Source of the DNA: Acholoe squamosa | Lineage: Eukaryota > Annelida > Polychaeta > Phyllodocida > Polynoidae | Assembly (NCBI GenBank): GCA_949317995.1 | Contig: OX439038.1 | Span: 72,984,659-73,048,658 of the forward strand | Length of the DNA stretch: 64,000 nucleotides | Reading direction: 5' to 3' | Shown: piece after piece, positions 8,761 through 62,290 of the stretch | Layout of the letters: each line of letters begins with the position of its first letter | How positions within the stretch are numbered: the stretch's first letter is position 1 | Notes under the pieces: generated by a model | What the model saw: the letters and a program-made list of their open reading frames with translations, nothing else | Told to the model about the DNA's origin: nothing | Database searches by the model: none | Translations under genes and position numbers: made by a program

Positions 8761-9034
8761 TCAATATGAATACAGCGTCAGTGGAGCACTAGCTAAGGGG
8801 CCATTGTTTTACAAAGATATGGCCAGAGATAAACATGTTGAAGTGACTGATAGCATGCTACAGATGAAAGTAGAGATAGGTAGGTAAAACTACATTAGAT
8901 ATCGCCACATCTAAGAGGGGAAGCCTTTTATGTGATTCCACAAAGAGATTTCGTTCAATATTTAGTTTTTCTAAGCAGTCCTAAATTTGTATTACAGAGC
9001 ATCTTTTGTAGACGTGAGACGCCAGGTCACCACT

Positions 9035-9235
9035 TTAATCCTGACCTTCCGATGCAACTCTGCTCATTAGGCATGTTGGTACCTTAAATTGACCAATCGA
9101 ACGTCAGTAAATAGAATAGAAAGACCTCCACATGCCTAAAATATTTCTTATGTGAAAATAACCCGCGATAAATTATAATATGGGGTGGTCCACTTTAAAG
9201 GTACCGACATGCCTAATGGTCGAGTCAGGGTGGAT
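9035..9235. repeat. Inverted-repeat (MITE-like) element
   Basis: CATTAGGCATGTTGGTACCTT (around 9069-9088) returns as its reverse complement at about 9199-9219, with further matches outward (CCTGAC versus GTCAGG). The arms are about 45 bp and imperfect, with a spacer of roughly 90 bp. No TSD was identified, so whether it is a transposon or a simple foldback is open. Confidence 0.55.
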
Positions 9236-9939
9236 TTACCCTACATGGGAAATAATCGCCTATGAATTTCGATAAATTACTTCACGTTTCACTACAGACC
9301 TAACATTACTGCTGTATGTAGGTATGAGACATCAGATACATAAACGGCATTTCTTCATTAAGCCAGATTCGGTGAAGTAGATGGGATGTGTACAGTAACT
9401 TTCTCTTCTATCATTTTCTGCTGGCAGAAATTGCTGTACAGTGCCTGGACTTAGCACGCAGCCAGTTTAGCTCTCTTTGGTAATCGCTTCATTTCTATTA
9501 GGTCCTGTGTGTGGCTTATGGAGATGGATAGTGAGAAAATGACCAGAGATGCCTACAGGCTTTTTACACCTTCCATCATGACATGATACAGGCACTAGGA
9601 TAAAGATCAATGTAGCCTCACCACAGCTCTGATAACAGGTTGTAAAATGAGTCTGTGATAGTGCACTTATGAGACGCCATTATGACAATCTCATTATACA
9701 TCTGGTACACAAGCCAGGGGCCAGATTGGGGAGAAACATTACAAGATGCACCCAGGTACACTAAAACAGACACCCAGTGAATCCCTAACACACCCCCTGG
9801 TGGATTTGTAGGAACACTAAGATCAATGCCTCCAGCAGGTATGAATAACACCACTCGGGCATTGTGGTAAACGTGGCCACCCTCCTCCTGTCCCTTAGGT
9901 CGTTAGCTCGGATCCGCTTCGTTTACCAAGCCCTGAATT

Positions 9940-57110: not shown

Positions 57111-57477
57111 TCCCCTTTATTTTTTTTGAACAGATTTATCTTTATTGATTCTATAAGTACGTATTACAAAGTATAGGGTTTTTTTTTCATCAGTTTTCCA
57201 CAAGATAATATGTGAAAGTATCAAGGTATCAGTGAGTCAATAAAGATTATGGGTGAGGTCTTATCTAAAGATATTTTTCTGACCCCCCATATATAATTAA
57301 CATGAGTTTCAGTTTTGACATTTGATATAAAATATGTACATGGTGAATGGTAATAGCGGCTGAGAAATTTGAGACCGTTTACAGATAGTTTGACCTTTCT
57401 TATAAATATTTGTGTTGAGATTGAGATGTGTGTCACCAAACGCCTAGAAATGCTTAATACATGTACTAAATAGTGTG

Positions 57478-60306
57478 CTATATTACAGTGGACATCATGT
57501 CCTGCTTCACCTTGTCTTTAAATTCTGAAATGGTTTTTTTATTTCGATATTCAGCAGGTAGTCCATTCCATGCCTTAGCACAAACAACTTCTGGACTCTT
57601 TTCATAGGATACAGCATTTATAAGGGAATATTCAAGGACAGGAGCTATACATAATCTTGTTATCCTAGTTTGATTTTTTACATTTTGTCCATTTTTTACC
57701 ATATGAAATGCATGTAATTTATGATGATAATCTCTTCTGGTATTAAGTTTAGGAACATTTGCCAATCGATGTATAAGATCAGTTGGGGTTAAAACATTTC
57801 TGTTAAAACATGTTTTCAGACATCTATTTTGTAATCTTTGCAGTTCCTCAAGGAGGGTATGGTTTGCTGATCCATAAAAAATATCGGCATAGTCAATGAT
57901 CGGAAGAACATAAGTTTTGTACACTTTTAACATAACCTTATTTGACAGCATTTTACGCAATTTATACAATAAAAATGATTTAAAGCGAATGTTTTTTAGC
58001 AATGACTTCACATGGCTATTGAAGGACATTTCTTGATCCAGAATTACTCCAAGATATTTATACGAAATAACTTGTTTGATTTCTGTACCATTCAATACAA
58101 TATTAGTTTGTGGTAATTTCTTCAGAGTAGGAGAGGCAGCAAATACCATAACCTTGGTTTTTGTCTCATTTAATGTGAGTCTATTTATACTAGCCCAGTT
58201 GTAAAAATATAGTAGGGCTGTCTTTAACCTGTTTTGAACAGTATCGAAATCAGTACCAGATACATATAGAACACTATCATCTGCATATAACATTGTTTTA
58301 TGATCATTGTCGGTGCCAATACAGTCATTGATATACAAGAGAAAAAATAGAGGGCCCAGTATGGATCCCTGAGGTACGCCACAGGTAAGAGGTAGAAGGG
58401 ATGATTTTATATTATTAGCCACAGTGCATTGCTTTCGATTGAATAGATAGTTTTTTATCAAATCTAGATTTTTACTACGAATTCCATAAAGTTCTAATTT
58501 TTTTAGCAGTATTTCAAAATTAACAGAATCAAAGGCTTTTTTAATGTCTATAAAGGCTGCCATGGTGAATTTACCAATATTTCTATCTTTTAAAACATTA
58601 TTAACAAATTTGCTGATACTATCTGATGTCGATTTACCTTTTTGATAGCCACCCTGTTGTTTAGTGAGAATATTATAGTTTTCTATATGTGAGGTGATAG
58701 ATGTGTGTATCAACCGTTCAAGCACCTTGCCAGGGACTGGTAATACACTTATGGGTCTGAAGTTTGACACACTCGAGGAGTCACCTCCTTTTGGTAAGGG
58801 AGTAACAATAGCAATCTTCCAGGTATCAGGTATACTACTAGAAACAAGACACATGTTTATAATTCTAATAAATCTATGAGACATATGAAGAACTGCATGT
58901 TTAAATATATAAGTGGGTATATAATTTAACGATGATGATTTTGACACATCAATATTTCTTAAAACTTTCAATATCTCTTCATCAGTAAATTCCATATCCG
59001 GCATATCATTAATACACCTATCGCCATAAAATTCCCACTCACGTACATGATGAGAGGCTAATTTTGGCCCAATATTTACAAAAAATTCATTGATATAATG
59101 TGCAGTGGCTTCAGTTTTTATAGGCAGACCTAGTTCATCGATCAAATTTATAGTGTTTTTTTCATTGTTTTTTGAGGGTATAATTTTTTTGATAGTCCTC
59201 CAAAAGGCCTTGGCATCTTTAATATTATCATCGCATTCTTGTTTATAAAAATTTTGCCTTGCTATTTCCCTTTCTAAATTTACAGAATTTCTAAGTATCC
59301 TGGCATTATGCCAATCCAGTTCTGATTTGGAATTTCTTGCTTTTTTTAAAGCCTCATTTTTATCATTAGTGCGTTCTAGTAAATAGTTTGACATCCAAGG
59401 GGCAGTTTTATCAACTATCTTAAATTCCCGAATTGGACACATGTCGTCTAAAATTTTTGTTATATGATTCTCAAATATTGTCCAACAAATTGACACATTA
59501 TTGCTATTATCAAATACAGTCCAGTCACATTGTTCAAATTTATACAGAAATTTGTCTTTGTTGTAATTTGAATACGAACGTCCCGTAAAAAATCTGTAGC
59601 CTTTTTTCACATTATCATGTTTTCTGAGGATATATACTGGTAAATGATCACTTAGATGAATATCCAAAGGTCCGTAGGACAAAATATTGATACAGTTTGT
59701 GAATATTAAATCTATACATGTATTGAAACCAGCAGTAGTTGTAACACAATTTATCAACTGCCTAAGATGAAAATTATCCATAGTCTCATATAATAAGCTA
59801 CGCTCATTATCATCAATTAGTGCATTGACATTAAAATCACCTATGCATACAATATCAAAGTCCTCAATCGAATCAATCTGTAGAAACAATGCGATAATAG
59901 TGTTACAAAAATTAAGCAGATTACCTTGAGGGGGTCTATACACATTACAAACAATAGTTTTTTTCGCTTTACCTTTTTGGATTATTAACCATTGAACCTC
60001 TATGTCTGGATTTCCTCTGTTAAGATGTTGTAAAGTTTCAGCTGAACACATTACAGTATCTAAAATATGGGCAATTAATCCTCCACCTCTAAATTCACTT
60101 ATTCTATCATGTCTATACATAGAGCAGCGGTTTAGTTTATAGTGAAAGTCAGCATCTGTATTATTCAAAAATGTTTCTGAGAACAGGAGTACATCAATAT
60201 TTTTATTTTCAAGTTCTTCTTTAATTCCAGCAGCCTTGTTTCTTATGCTTCGGGCATTTAGATGGACTATCGAAAAACCGGTATCAAAAATGTGATTTAC
60301 TACCAT
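57478..60306 (-). CDS. LINE ORF2 protein: endonuclease and reverse transcriptase
   Basis: The 942-residue protein nicks the target and copies element RNA onto it (target-primed reverse transcription). Residues 11-225 are an apurinic-type endonuclease: LNARS (16-20), the catalytic-type SETF (E44), YRPP (123-126), GDFNV (156-160) and SDH (219-221). Residues about 495-760 are the reverse transcriptase: FRPISVLP (516-523), FIDIKKAFD with D587, GVPQGSILGP (643-652) and YADD (674-677). A long C-terminal region with no RNase H or zinc knuckle follows, as in CR1/L2-like elements. All key residues are present and no frame break is seen. It starts at ATGGTAG, overlapping the stop of a short upstream frame. 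Confidence 0.95.
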   Translation of the reverse strand: MVVNHIFDTGFSIVHLNARSIRNKAAGIKEELENKNIDVLLFSETFLNNTDADFHYKLNRCSMYRHDRISEFRGGGLIAHILDTVMCSAETLQHLNRGNPDIEVQWLIIQKGKAKKTIVCNVYRPPQGNLLNFCNTIIALFLQIDSIEDFDIVCIGDFNVNALIDDNERSLLYETMDNFHLRQLINCVTTTAGFNTCIDLIFTNCINILSYGPLDIHLSDHLPVYILRKHDNVKKGYRFFTGRSYSNYNKDKFLYKFEQCDWTVFDNSNNVSICWTIFENHITKILDDMCPIREFKIVDKTAPWMSNYLLERTNDKNEALKKARNSKSELDWHNARILRNSVNLEREIARQNFYKQECDDNIKDAKAFWRTIKKIIPSKNNEKNTINLIDELGLPIKTEATAHYINEFFVNIGPKLASHHVREWEFYGDRCINDMPDMEFTDEEILKVLRNIDVSKSSSLNYIPTYIFKHAVLHMSHRFIRIINMCLVSSSIPDTWKIAIVTPLPKGGDSSSVSNFRPISVLPVPGKVLERLIHTSITSHIENYNILTKQQGGYQKGKSTSDSISKFVNNVLKDRNIGKFTMAAFIDIKKAFDSVNFEILLKKLELYGIRSKNLDLIKNYLFNRKQCTVANNIKSSLLPLTCGVPQGSILGPLFFLLYINDCIGTDNDHKTMLYADDSVLYVSGTDFDTVQNRLKTALLYFYNWASINRLTLNETKTKVMVFAASPTLKKLPQTNIVLNGTEIKQVISYKYLGVILDQEMSFNSHVKSLLKNIRFKSFLLYKLRKMLSNKVMLKVYKTYVLPIIDYADIFYGSANHTLLEELQRLQNRCLKTCFNRNVLTPTDLIHRLANVPKLNTRRDYHHKLHAFHMVKNGQNVKNQTRITRLCIAPVLEYSLINAVSYEKSPEVVCAKAWNGLPAEYRNKKTISEFKDKVKQDMMSTVI

Positions 60307-60624
60307 ATTTCATGATTATCAAAGAATAATAGTTTGACAAGATTTTTCTTTTCTAGAATTGCACAGGCATGACACACAATCTCAACACATGACAAAGAGA
60401 AAACAAAGATAAGATAATACAAAAAATAACAATAAAAATGTCCCACGGAGGGCGTACGGCTCTGGTGGCCACCCATCCTATCCAAAGGTATTTTCCAGGT
60501 GTAGAACGGCTCCATAGAAAAAATAGTTCATAATAAATTTAATTATGTTTACCTGGGTTGATAATATTTTACATACAAGATAAATTATACTGGTATGTGT
60601 GGATCTGTCTATATATGTATCTAT
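60307..60624 (-). other. Spacer between LINE ORF1 and ORF2
   Basis: 318 bp. It contains a 71-codon frame (60300-60515) whose stop overlaps the ORF2 start in ATGGTAG. The frame shows no domain and its reality is uncertain; the arrangement could support reinitiation at ORF2. Confidence 0.5.
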
Positions 60625-62118
60625 CTATTTGACATCGACTTCAGCTGCTTCTGGCTGCTCTGGTAGTTTTCTATCCGCAGTAGGATTTTTTGGACGATTT
60701 ACAGGAGTCATAGGTCGGTTTGTTGGTTGATTTCTATCGTCATTCCCTTCTCCTTCATCACTGTTATCATCAGGATCACGTGATAAGACTCTTCTCAGCC
60801 TCATCATTAACTTGCCCTGTACATTGGCACCATTGAGGTTCCCTTCTCTACAGTGTCTATATTGACCCAGGTGGTAGCCAACCCCATATACAGGATGGAA
60901 ACTTCCCTCATACAAGTTTTTTGCCTTGACTGATAATAGATATTCTCTGAGGTTTGGGTCTGAAAACTTGATAGCGTTCAGTTTGTACATGACTAATTCT
61001 GCCTGTTTCGCCCAAGAAGGATTTTCCTTGAGGACTTTTGTTGTACTCATCATTTGATATGGACACGATAATTCTAAGATTCTTTGGGCAATATCTTCTC
61101 TGTCAAAGGTCTTTGCCTTGTAGAATTGGAACCCCTGTTCTACACAATTAAATGTTAGGTCTCCATCTTTAATTTCACATGGATATAGGTTAGATAACCT
61201 ATGATGCACTGATCTGTACATAAGACCATCAGGAGTCGAGGCCTCAGACGCTTTTTCCATTGTCAGACCATGAGGTAGATTACCTAACTGCCTGTGACTG
61301 TAGGTTCTATCATCGATTATAATATGTCTTTGACGTAGTTTGACTTTGATGGAATTTGCTTTACATAAGAAGTACATTGCTCTCAGATCAATGAATTGTC
61401 GATGTTCATTTTCATTGAGTTCATCTCCAATGGAGACATTATCCCATTTGCTTTTACCTCTCAAATTCTTCAAGTTTTTGAACAGCTCGCTTTTACATTG
61501 CAGGTTAAGAAAGGTCAAACGTATGGGCCTATGCTTACCCTCCATGTTAGCTGTATTTTGGTTTAATTTTCTTCGTTGAGGTCCTTCTCTTCGGACCGCT
61601 GCCACCATGTCAACTCCCCAGTCAACATTGGTATCGATGAATAGTTGCTTCATATCGGTATACAGGTCTTCATTAGCTTTTTCTTCGTAGCCTTCTATTA
61701 TTACTACCTTTTGTGCATCAATTTTCTCCAATTTATCAAACTTATTTTGATGTGATTGTAATAATTTGGTGGTCGCATCCGCTGTCTTGTTTACGACTTC
61801 TAGACTGACCTTGACCTCTTGTGTGGCATTTGTGTTCTTCTCTAGTTTCGTATCAACAGACGCCAAAGTATCGTTTAGTCTCGCATTTGTGTCATTTATA
61901 CATTTAATAGAAGTTTGGAGTGATAATAATGTTTGCAAGGTATTTGAGGTTACCAGTTCTTGAGCAGACATCCTTTTTTCTAAGGAATTTACAGCGTCGA
62001 TGACCTCCGCTAGACTCGCCGTAGATTTCAACAATGGCTGGGCCGCCATGTTAGAAATTTCAGATACCTCACTTTGTTCCGGAGTTTTTGACCTTGTATT
62101 TCCAGCAGGGGTTGACAT
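60625..62118 (-). CDS. LINE ORF1 protein: coiled coil, RRM-like region and NADAR domain
   Basis: The 497-residue protein should bind element RNA and form the RNP. Residues about 35-135 form a coiled coil with heptad-like Leu/Val spacing. Residues 138-215 resemble the ORF1 RRM (VVIIEGYEE; RPIRLTFLN as the second RNP strand). 226-290 resembles the L1-type C-terminal domain (VSIGDEL...IKVKLRQRHIIIDD). Residues about 300-446 are a NADAR/YbiA-like domain: LSNLYPCEI (308-316), CVEQGFQFYKAKTF (325-338, conserved Glu at E327), the YEGSFHPVYGVG region (403-414) and the GANVQGKLMMRLR signature (430-442). The tail is acidic and Pro-rich. YbiA-family proteins cleave N-glycosidic bonds; enzymatic activity here is inferred, not shown. 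Tyr replaces the usual Trp before the GxG. Confidence 0.9.
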   Translation of the reverse strand: MSTPAGNTRSKTPEQSEVSEISNMAAQPLLKSTASLAEVIDAVNSLEKRMSAQELVTSNTLQTLLSLQTSIKCINDTNARLNDTLASVDTKLEKNTNATQEVKVSLEVVNKTADATTKLLQSHQNKFDKLEKIDAQKVVIIEGYEEKANEDLYTDMKQLFIDTNVDWGVDMVAAVRREGPQRRKLNQNTANMEGKHRPIRLTFLNLQCKSELFKNLKNLRGKSKWDNVSIGDELNENEHRQFIDLRAMYFLCKANSIKVKLRQRHIIIDDRTYSHRQLGNLPHGLTMEKASEASTPDGLMYRSVHHRLSNLYPCEIKDGDLTFNCVEQGFQFYKAKTFDREDIAQRILELSCPYQMMSTTKVLKENPSWAKQAELVMYKLNAIKFSDPNLREYLLSVKAKNLYEGSFHPVYGVGYHLGQYRHCREGNLNGANVQGKLMMRLRRVLSRDPDDNSDEGEGNDDRNQPTNRPMTPVNRPKNPTADRKLPEQPEAAEVDVK

Positions 62119-62290
62119 TCCTATGTAAGTCTACGCTAGAATACTTTATAATTACTAATAACTCGCAAAGAGTTTCCACACTCGTAGGTTGACAAGGGTT
62201 TTTTGAAGAATTCAACGGAGCGCCAGACCGTGGATGTTTACCTGAGTGCCGCCATTGCCAAAAATTGAGTAAGCTGCAGGGATTGTGTCT
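62119..62290 (-). promoter_or_regulatory. LINE 5' UTR with YY1-like site
   Basis: About 170 bp upstream of ORF1. On the minus strand GGCAATGGCGGC (62248-62259) resembles the YY1 core (ATGGCGGC), placed near the presumed 5' end as in mammalian L1, where YY1 sets the start site. An internal promoter is required for LINE propagation. The exact start is unknown. Confidence 0.4.

Follow-up and report, generated by a model that had tools for sequence, protein, structure and literature searches.

A NADAR domain under purifying selection in ORF1 of non-LTR retrotransposons of the annelid Acholoe squamosa

Introduction

Among the matches listed in the literature searched, the closest counterparts of the locus analyzed here are found in the Pacific oyster where, according to the available passages of PMC12477816, ORF1 of several Tx1 LINE families contains a NADAR domain, the role of which is left open. 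For the pocket of NADAR domains, the P. nicotianae enzyme provides a detailed reference (PMC11543638). In this enzyme, the ribose that takes part in the cleaved bond is bound by E43 and E125, E43 being located at the distal ribose; the pyrophosphate is contacted by K50, R79, W89, R93, W133, and D130, and the adenosine is held by Y84 and D86. Mutagenesis of the E. coli C7 NADAR addressed the equivalents E88, K95, and D171: mutants of K95 and D171 lose efficient activity, E88Q is inactive, and E88A is mildly affected in vitro, while neither E88 mutant rescues in vivo. The K95R variant hydrolyzes guanine-ADP-ribose in vitro and does not rescue from the toxin (PMC11543638). In the nematode protein SNA-3, mutating the matching residues of two NADAR domains impairs SNA-3, and the authors allow for misfolding in the passages available to us (PMC9303266). 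That ORF1 modules can pass from one LINE lineage to another is supported by evidence in the accessible part of PMC4120745.

The DNA analyzed here, referred to below as the window, is a stretch of 64,000 nucleotides of the polychaete Acholoe squamosa (assembly GCA_949317995.1, contig OX439038.1, positions 72,984,659 to 73,048,658); all coordinates are those of the window. An initial annotation, prepared from the sequence alone, proposed that a NADAR/YbiA-like domain is built into a LINE ORF1 protein in this window. We report how the proposal fares when the element, its relatives in the same genome, and the residues of the NADAR pocket are compared.

Results

The ORF in question belongs to a LINE element of about 5.14 kb on the minus strand (57121..62259), the ends of which were taken from alignment to two copies, L049 and L050, and are fixed only to within a few bases. 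Copy L050 is 99.67% identical to the window element over 5135 bp and has different flanks, and copy L049, which lacks the 3′ part, is 97.5% identical over 4487 bp. A search for target site duplications at the window copy and at L050 found none, there being no common word of at least 7 bases in the 40–50 bases of flank compared. ORF1 is intact and encodes 497 amino acids (60625..62118, stop codon included). These coordinates agree with the initial annotation; the strand is minus, the plus-strand frame being full of stops. ORF2 starts 318 bases downstream of the end of ORF1 and encodes 942 amino acids with an APE-type endonuclease and a reverse transcriptase (RT) (57478..60306, minus strand, stop codon included). 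The RT domain (RVT_1, 117.1 bits) spans ORF2 residues 505–756 (58039..58794, minus strand) and contains the motifs GVPQGSILGPLFF and YADD, while the endonuclease is matched by two Exo_endo_phos models of Pfam at 25.2 and 19.6 bits, below the respective cut-offs of 27.4 and 24.5. The endonuclease and RT of ORF2, the near-identical copies, and the presence of RT places on many contigs identify the window element as an APE-type non-LTR retrotransposon, i.e., a LINE. No transferase family is present among the Pfam matches of the two long ORFs of the element; thus, the adjacent DarT of DarTG1-type systems was not found there.

The Pfam NADAR model (PF08719) matches ORF1 residues 305–445 (60784..61206, minus strand) with 68.3 bits and an E-value of 1.3e-18, against a cut-off of 35.1, and the match covers model positions 10–162 of 163. 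NADAR is the sole Pfam family above cut-off in ORF1. A solved NADAR structure, 8bau, also matches the domain (E 4.8e-8), and in a profile-profile comparison the NADARs of the window family match 46 free-standing NADARs with a probability of 99.8 and an E-value of 3.8e-29, compared with 2.1 and 0.023 for the reversed-sequence control. The Pfam score and the reversed control rule out a chance motif match as the source of the signal. The initial placement of the domain at residues of about 300–446 is thereby borne out, and the motifs on which it was based, LSNLYP, CVEQGFQFYKAKTF, and GANVQGKLMMRLR, are present as written. By these profile comparisons, the ORF1 domain is a bona fide member of the NADAR superfamily. 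Within the superfamily, it has the glutamate of the YbiA class (E404) at the position of E125, and not the aspartate of the BC4488 class or the histidine of the phage class.

NADAR-coding sequences are abundant in this genome, of which 1.48 Gb in 63 contigs were searched. The Pfam NADAR model gave 3224 first-look candidates, and all 150 that were scored exceeded the cut-off. The two best scorers, L001 and L002, are free-standing ORFs with a full canonical site and 65% mutual identity; they are close to bacterial and viral NADARs in the NADAR tree and are probably host genes. With the 192-residue NADAR region of the window as the query, 3048 first-look candidates were obtained. Among the 150 of them that were scored, the identical 192-residue segment is encoded at a minimum of eight places including the window, at least 24 places are identical at 94% or more over 191 or 192 residues, and further matches have identities near 75%, of 56–63%, and of 44–51%, with some partial matches in between; 122 of the 150 have no internal stop. 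With the RT of the window as the query, 23,823 candidates were obtained, 104 of which were scored, yielding 105 matches. When 103 RT matches were compared with 124 NADAR places, a NADAR was located on the same strand no more than 6 kb upstream of 62 of the 103, where 0.03 would be expected by chance. The other 41 RT places may be 5′-truncated, or their NADAR may be absent from the 124 places used.

The variety of NADAR-bearing elements was assessed with 20 NADAR loci other than L001 and L002, picked by eye for variety and fetched with 10 kb each. An RT domain is present in 18 of these loci, and a broken endonuclease-RT was detected by tblastn in L009, so that 19 of the 20 are LINEs; in L023, no endonuclease-RT was seen within its 10-kb fetch. 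The search for further LINE ORF1 proteins with the fusion, which the initial annotation had put forward as a check, has thus come out in its favor, the endonuclease-RT being located downstream of the NADAR in the 19 loci. In the RT tree, the window groups with L025 (support 95/98; lineage A), apart from lineages B (seven loci, 90/97), C (three loci, 99/100), D (two loci, 82/100), E (three loci, 100/100), and F (two loci, 100/100). The mutual position of E and F is uncertain, since their long branches meet in this tree, as the program warned. Lineage E is L1-type: ORF2 of its member L022 matches human L1 ORF2p with 302 bits. The window ORF2 reaches 56 bits at best in the same comparison, and this difference, together with the RT tree, rules out a Tx1/L1 assignment for the window element. 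Its RT is 31–37% identical to those of lineages B–D and has the motif GVPQGSILGP; the motif and the kinship to B–D are no more than suggestive of a placement in the Jockey superfamily (CR1/L2-like). Judged by their RT sequences, NADAR-bearing LINEs span at least six lineages in this one genome, one of which is L1-type.

Several features of individual loci were seen in passing. The seven loci of lineage B (L010, L011, L013, L016, L017, L021, and L026) contain extra ORFs, one or two per locus and about 180–390 residues long, between the NADAR-bearing ORF1 and the endonuclease-RT ORF. In L010, L011, L013, L017, and L026, these extra ORFs contain a ‘GF.D.C’ motif and have an SGNH/esterase-like look, and those of L010 and L011, the two that were examined, have no Pfam match. 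ORF1 of L018 (lineage F) combines the NADAR with a C-terminal SGNH/esterase-like stretch, to which the Pfam SASA model gives 14.4 bits, below its cut-off of 24.8. The NADAR sequences of L217 and L220 fit none of lineages A–F well by eye and are possibly those of further LINE lineages. In L015, a second L1-type ORF1 (at about 8881–9801 of that locus) is located shortly past ORF2 of the first element, the two copies being in tandem or nested, and in L025, endonuclease-RT pieces of another LINE are found on the reverse strand (about 3–2381) directly upstream of the sister element of the window.

Outside of the NADAR domain, ORF1 was initially described as standard, with a coiled coil, an RRM-like domain, and a C-terminal domain (CTD); this description stands only in part. 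The N-terminus, with a coiled-coil-like segment at residues 34–131 (61726..62019, minus strand), has only weak and unspecific profile matches to coiled-coil chains, and the core segment at residues 132–297 (61228..61725, minus strand) has no RRM or CTD match in Pfam or PDB profile searches. The putative RRM/CTD label of the core is therefore based on pattern and on kinship to other LINE ORF1 proteins. In profile comparisons, the core of lineage A scores 99.0 with B, 97.7 with D, 85.4 with C, and 41.5 with E; among the other lineages, the values are 96.0 for B–C, 99.1 for B–D, 96.2 for B–E, 90.4 for D–E, 12.0 for C–D, and 1.2 for C–E, and the reversed controls give 0.2–0.3. It should be noted that C and E are represented here by one sequence each and D by two, and that the comparison covers lineages A–E. 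The core of the window ORF1 thus appears tied to that of L1-type lineage E via lineage B, the direct A–E match being weak.

Alignment to the P. nicotianae enzyme places the residues of the window pocket as follows (all on the minus strand). E327 (61138..61140) is the equivalent of E43 at the distal ribose, K334 (61117..61119) that of the phosphate-contacting K50, W369 (61012..61014) that of W89, and E404 (60907..60909) that of E125, the catalytic glutamate of the YbiA class (roles according to PMC11543638). In other positions the window departs from the reference: K361 (61036..61038) replaces the pyrophosphate arginine R79, H408 (60895..60897) replaces D130, Y411 (60886..60888) replaces W133, M357 stands for K75, A373 stands for R93, and the adenine loop is two residues shorter. 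The pyrophosphate and adenosine contact set of the guanine-ADP-ribose hydrolases (R79, R93, D130, W133, and Y84/D86) is accordingly not reproduced. By spacing, and in our own mapping, D130 and W133 match two residues of SNA-3 NADAR2 that were mutated as homologs of residues for YbiA activity, as far as the available part of PMC9303266 describes them. The tyrosine in place of tryptophan that the initial annotation had flagged is real. Since the position is Y in 16 and W in 6 of the 22 window-family ORF1 proteins, and W, Y, H, F, or M in other lineages, it is not decisive.

E327, K334, K361, W369, and E404 are invariant in all 22 window-family ORF1 proteins, and this invariance is not merely due to recency, because the E and K codons vary synonymously. 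The pattern extends to the other lineages. Across 27 NADARs of lineages A–F (among which are 7 of the 20 additional window-lineage ORF1 proteins and L023, filed under C by its NADAR alone, with L009 left out as its domain is broken), E43, W89, and E125 are kept throughout, K50 is K in 23 and R in 4, R79 is never Arg (K in 11, D in 13, H in 3), D130 is kept in 16, and W133 in 15. A second sample of 20, which favors conserved motifs because it was drawn from the 150 best Pfam scorers and includes near-copies, likewise keeps E43, W89, and E125 in 20/20, with K50 as K in 15 and R in 5, and R79 as D in 14, H in 4, and K in 2. Its member L204 coincides with L018, which leaves 19 new places to be added to the 27. 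The YbiA-class glutamate is thus present in 27/27 and 20/20 rows, and E43, W89, E125, and K50 (as K or R) are present, and R79 absent, in 46/46 distinct LINE NADARs. Among 36 positions conserved at 90% or more in the 46 free NADARs, only 8 are retained throughout the 27 LINE rows, including E43, W89, and E125; the conservation of E, Q, and K in the free set is partly by construction, as the set was fetched with a pattern containing these residues.

Selection on the domain was estimated from 22 window-lineage ORF1 sequences (the window, L025, and 20 more), using seven pooled pairs in which no sequence was used twice. Pooled pN/pS is 0.090 for the NADAR region (residues 298–449), 0.074 for the core, 0.139 for the coiled-coil-like segment, 0.244 for the N-terminal tail, and 0.516 for the fast-evolving C-tail (residues 450–497; 60628..60771, minus strand); the seven pairs are not strictly independent, since in the 63% group two pairs may have branches in common. 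Where synonymous sites are unsaturated, single-pair NADAR values lie between 0 and 0.12; several distant pairs are saturated and yield no ratio. Between L029 and the window, the NADAR domain has 9 synonymous and 0 non-synonymous changes. Across subgroups, NADAR is about as conserved as the core (49% vs 43% for L043, and 95% vs 98% for L031). The NADAR of the window family is under strong purifying selection, which answers another check of the initial annotation in its favor.

These results bear on the idea that NADAR is a functionless passenger retained by recent copying. Part of the family is indeed young, as is evident from the eight copies that encode an identical 192-residue segment. However, dN/dS of the domain is far below 1 over synonymous distances from 0.1 to more than 1, the invariant pocket codons display synonymous variation, and NADAR is present in six RT lineages; pN/pS and the synonymous variation contradict neutrality, and we regard the passenger idea as hardly credible. 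Since key enzyme residues are kept in related elements of the same genome, NADAR probably does something that the LINE needs. Clear loss of catalysis is ruled out, in our assessment, by retention of E43, W89, E125, and K50 (K or R) in the 46 LINE NADARs. The alternative offered by the initial annotation, in which catalysis is lost, is argued against by purifying selection and by the retention of the catalytic residues that have been mutagenized in other NADARs, although the site is altered. Loss of all pocket residues with neutral evolution, which was named there as the contrary outcome, is not what the family displays, given the retained E43/K50/W89/E125 set and the pN/pS of 0.09.

In a tree of 73 NADARs, a single clade (99/95) comprises the domains of lineages A, B, C, D, and F; the full set of 27 LINE domains is found on the same side of a branch whose support, 96/76, is unstarred. 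A tree constrained to unite A–D without F is not rejected (p 0.286). The idea of at least two separate captures, one by L1-type elements and another by the rest, finds no support here, as the 27 LINE rows lie beyond that one branch. A single capture of NADAR followed by spread across lineages is possible and fits the common ORF1 core; several captures would also be compatible with the data.

Discussion

With moderate confidence, we lean towards the view that the NADAR fused to the C-terminal end of the LINE ORF1 protein is a functional enzyme, presumably a hydrolase of the ribosyl-N-glycosidase type, acting in cis on the ribonucleoprotein (RNP). LINE ORF1 proteins coat the element's RNA, as is known for L1, and NADAR would therefore encounter adducts on LINE RNA or cDNA, or molecules in the vicinity that derive from nucleotides. 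Brought to the RNP in cis by ORF1p, the domain would cleave the bond between ribose and its base or adduct, and such cleavage would shield the RNP against modification or restriction by the host. We infer catalysis, action on the RNP, and benefit to the LINE from sequence, the fusion to ORF1 being what points to adducts of the element's own RNA or cDNA as the target. The cutting residues are kept by selection and several residues on the adenosine and pyrophosphate side have been let go, which suggests a substrate other than plain ADP-ribose-guanine, or one that is held differently. ADP-ribose on nucleic acid as the substrate is conjectural, as is the host adversary envisaged in the initial annotation, for which the pierisin-like ADP-ribosyltransferases of marine shellfish were named as an example.

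A broader proposition, which we put forward only tentatively and consider doubtful, is that a large clan of animal LINEs, both L1 and non-L1, carries an ORF1p-tethered nucleic-acid N-glycosidase, recognizable by a signature in which E-K/R-W-E and G-x-N-x-x-G are kept and the pyrophosphate arginine is lost. This enzyme would remove host-defense base adducts from the element's own RNA or cDNA and would thus serve counter-defense.

Some of the findings speak against an enzyme. R79 is replaced in 46/46 LINE NADARs. Further changes in the window lineage affect K75, R93, the adenine loop, D130, and, in a subgroup, W133. The conserved E, K, and W could serve ligand binding without turnover. NADAR might then be a reader with a pocket for ADP-ribose, an RNA end, or a host partner, aiding assembly or localization of the RNP with little or no catalysis. 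The changed contacts R79, R93, D130, and W133 of the window would agree with such a role, as would NADAR1 of SNA-3, which, in the available passages of PMC9303266, lacks the YbiA residues yet is retained in the protein. On the other hand, the distal-ribose residues and K50, which are important for catalysis in the E. coli C7 NADAR (PMC11543638), are kept, and the losses mostly concern residues that hold the ligand; for a domain that only binds, one would expect the reverse pattern of retention. A reader is, in our opinion, unlikely.

An enzyme with a different type of substrate must also be considered. NADAR could hydrolyze free small molecules arising from host defense or damage, such as ADP-ribose derivatives or riboflavin-type intermediates, and not adducts on nucleic acids. 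Precedents exist: the N-glycosidase YbiA of E. coli has riboflavin intermediates as its substrates, according to the available part of PMC11543638, and for phage NADARs the accessible passages of PMC9503650 argue that the main targets are soluble ADP-ribose derivatives. Nevertheless, the fusion to ORF1 suggests a bound target, D130 and W133, which by our own mapping are likely required in YbiA, are changed in the window, and for the NADARs of animal RNA viruses the same passages of PMC9503650 lean to macromolecular targets. Free small molecules appear quite improbable as the substrate.

If the ORF1-borne enzyme works, it would indicate a nucleic-acid modification step in the control of LINEs, and the substrate of NADAR would name the modification. 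We know of no description of such a step in the control of animal LINEs. Moreover, the retention of an enzyme domain by distant RT lineages in one animal genome bears on the movement of ORF1 modules between clades.

In the literature searched (full text, without bioRxiv), the only report among the matches listed that joins a NADAR to a transposon, with nothing closer, is PMC12477816, to the extent that its available passages allow comparison. The oyster Tx1 LINEs described there resemble the window element in that ORF1 carries a YbiA-family NADAR and several such families are present in one animal genome; the passages contain no selection, pocket, or copy-number analysis of the oyster domains. 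Unlike the window element, whose RT is far from L1, Tx1 belongs to the L1 group. The brown-algal Gypsy Pol of the same passages is likewise a retrotransposon-borne NADAR, whereas the carrier is an LTR element and the protein is a different one; its authors consider horizontal acquisition possible, as almost only bacterial blastp matches were obtained. The antitoxins associated with DarT1 and the P. nicotianae NADAR belong to the same family by sequence, and the window keeps E43, K50, W89, and E125 of the latter; it differs in having no ADP-ribosyltransferase partner in the element and in the changed R79, R93, adenine loop, D130, and W133 (PMC11543638). SNA-3, which acts in nematode trans-splicing and has three NADARs, is another case of animal NADARs inside an RNA-handling protein, but it is, according to the available passages of PMC9303266, the product of a nematode-specific host gene and not a LINE ORF1. 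Finally, the esterase- and PHD-bearing ORF1 proteins of CR1/L2 elements provide a parallel for the addition of enzyme-like or reader domains to ORF1 in the Jockey superfamily; none of the ORF1 types described in the accessible passages of PMC4120745 has a NADAR. Some of the NADAR-LINE lineages may already be present in Repbase. What the present analysis adds to prior art is that the fusion occurs in a non-L1 lineage and that a single genome contains six or more RT lineages with it, together with the scale of the phenomenon, selection on the domain, and the pocket signature.
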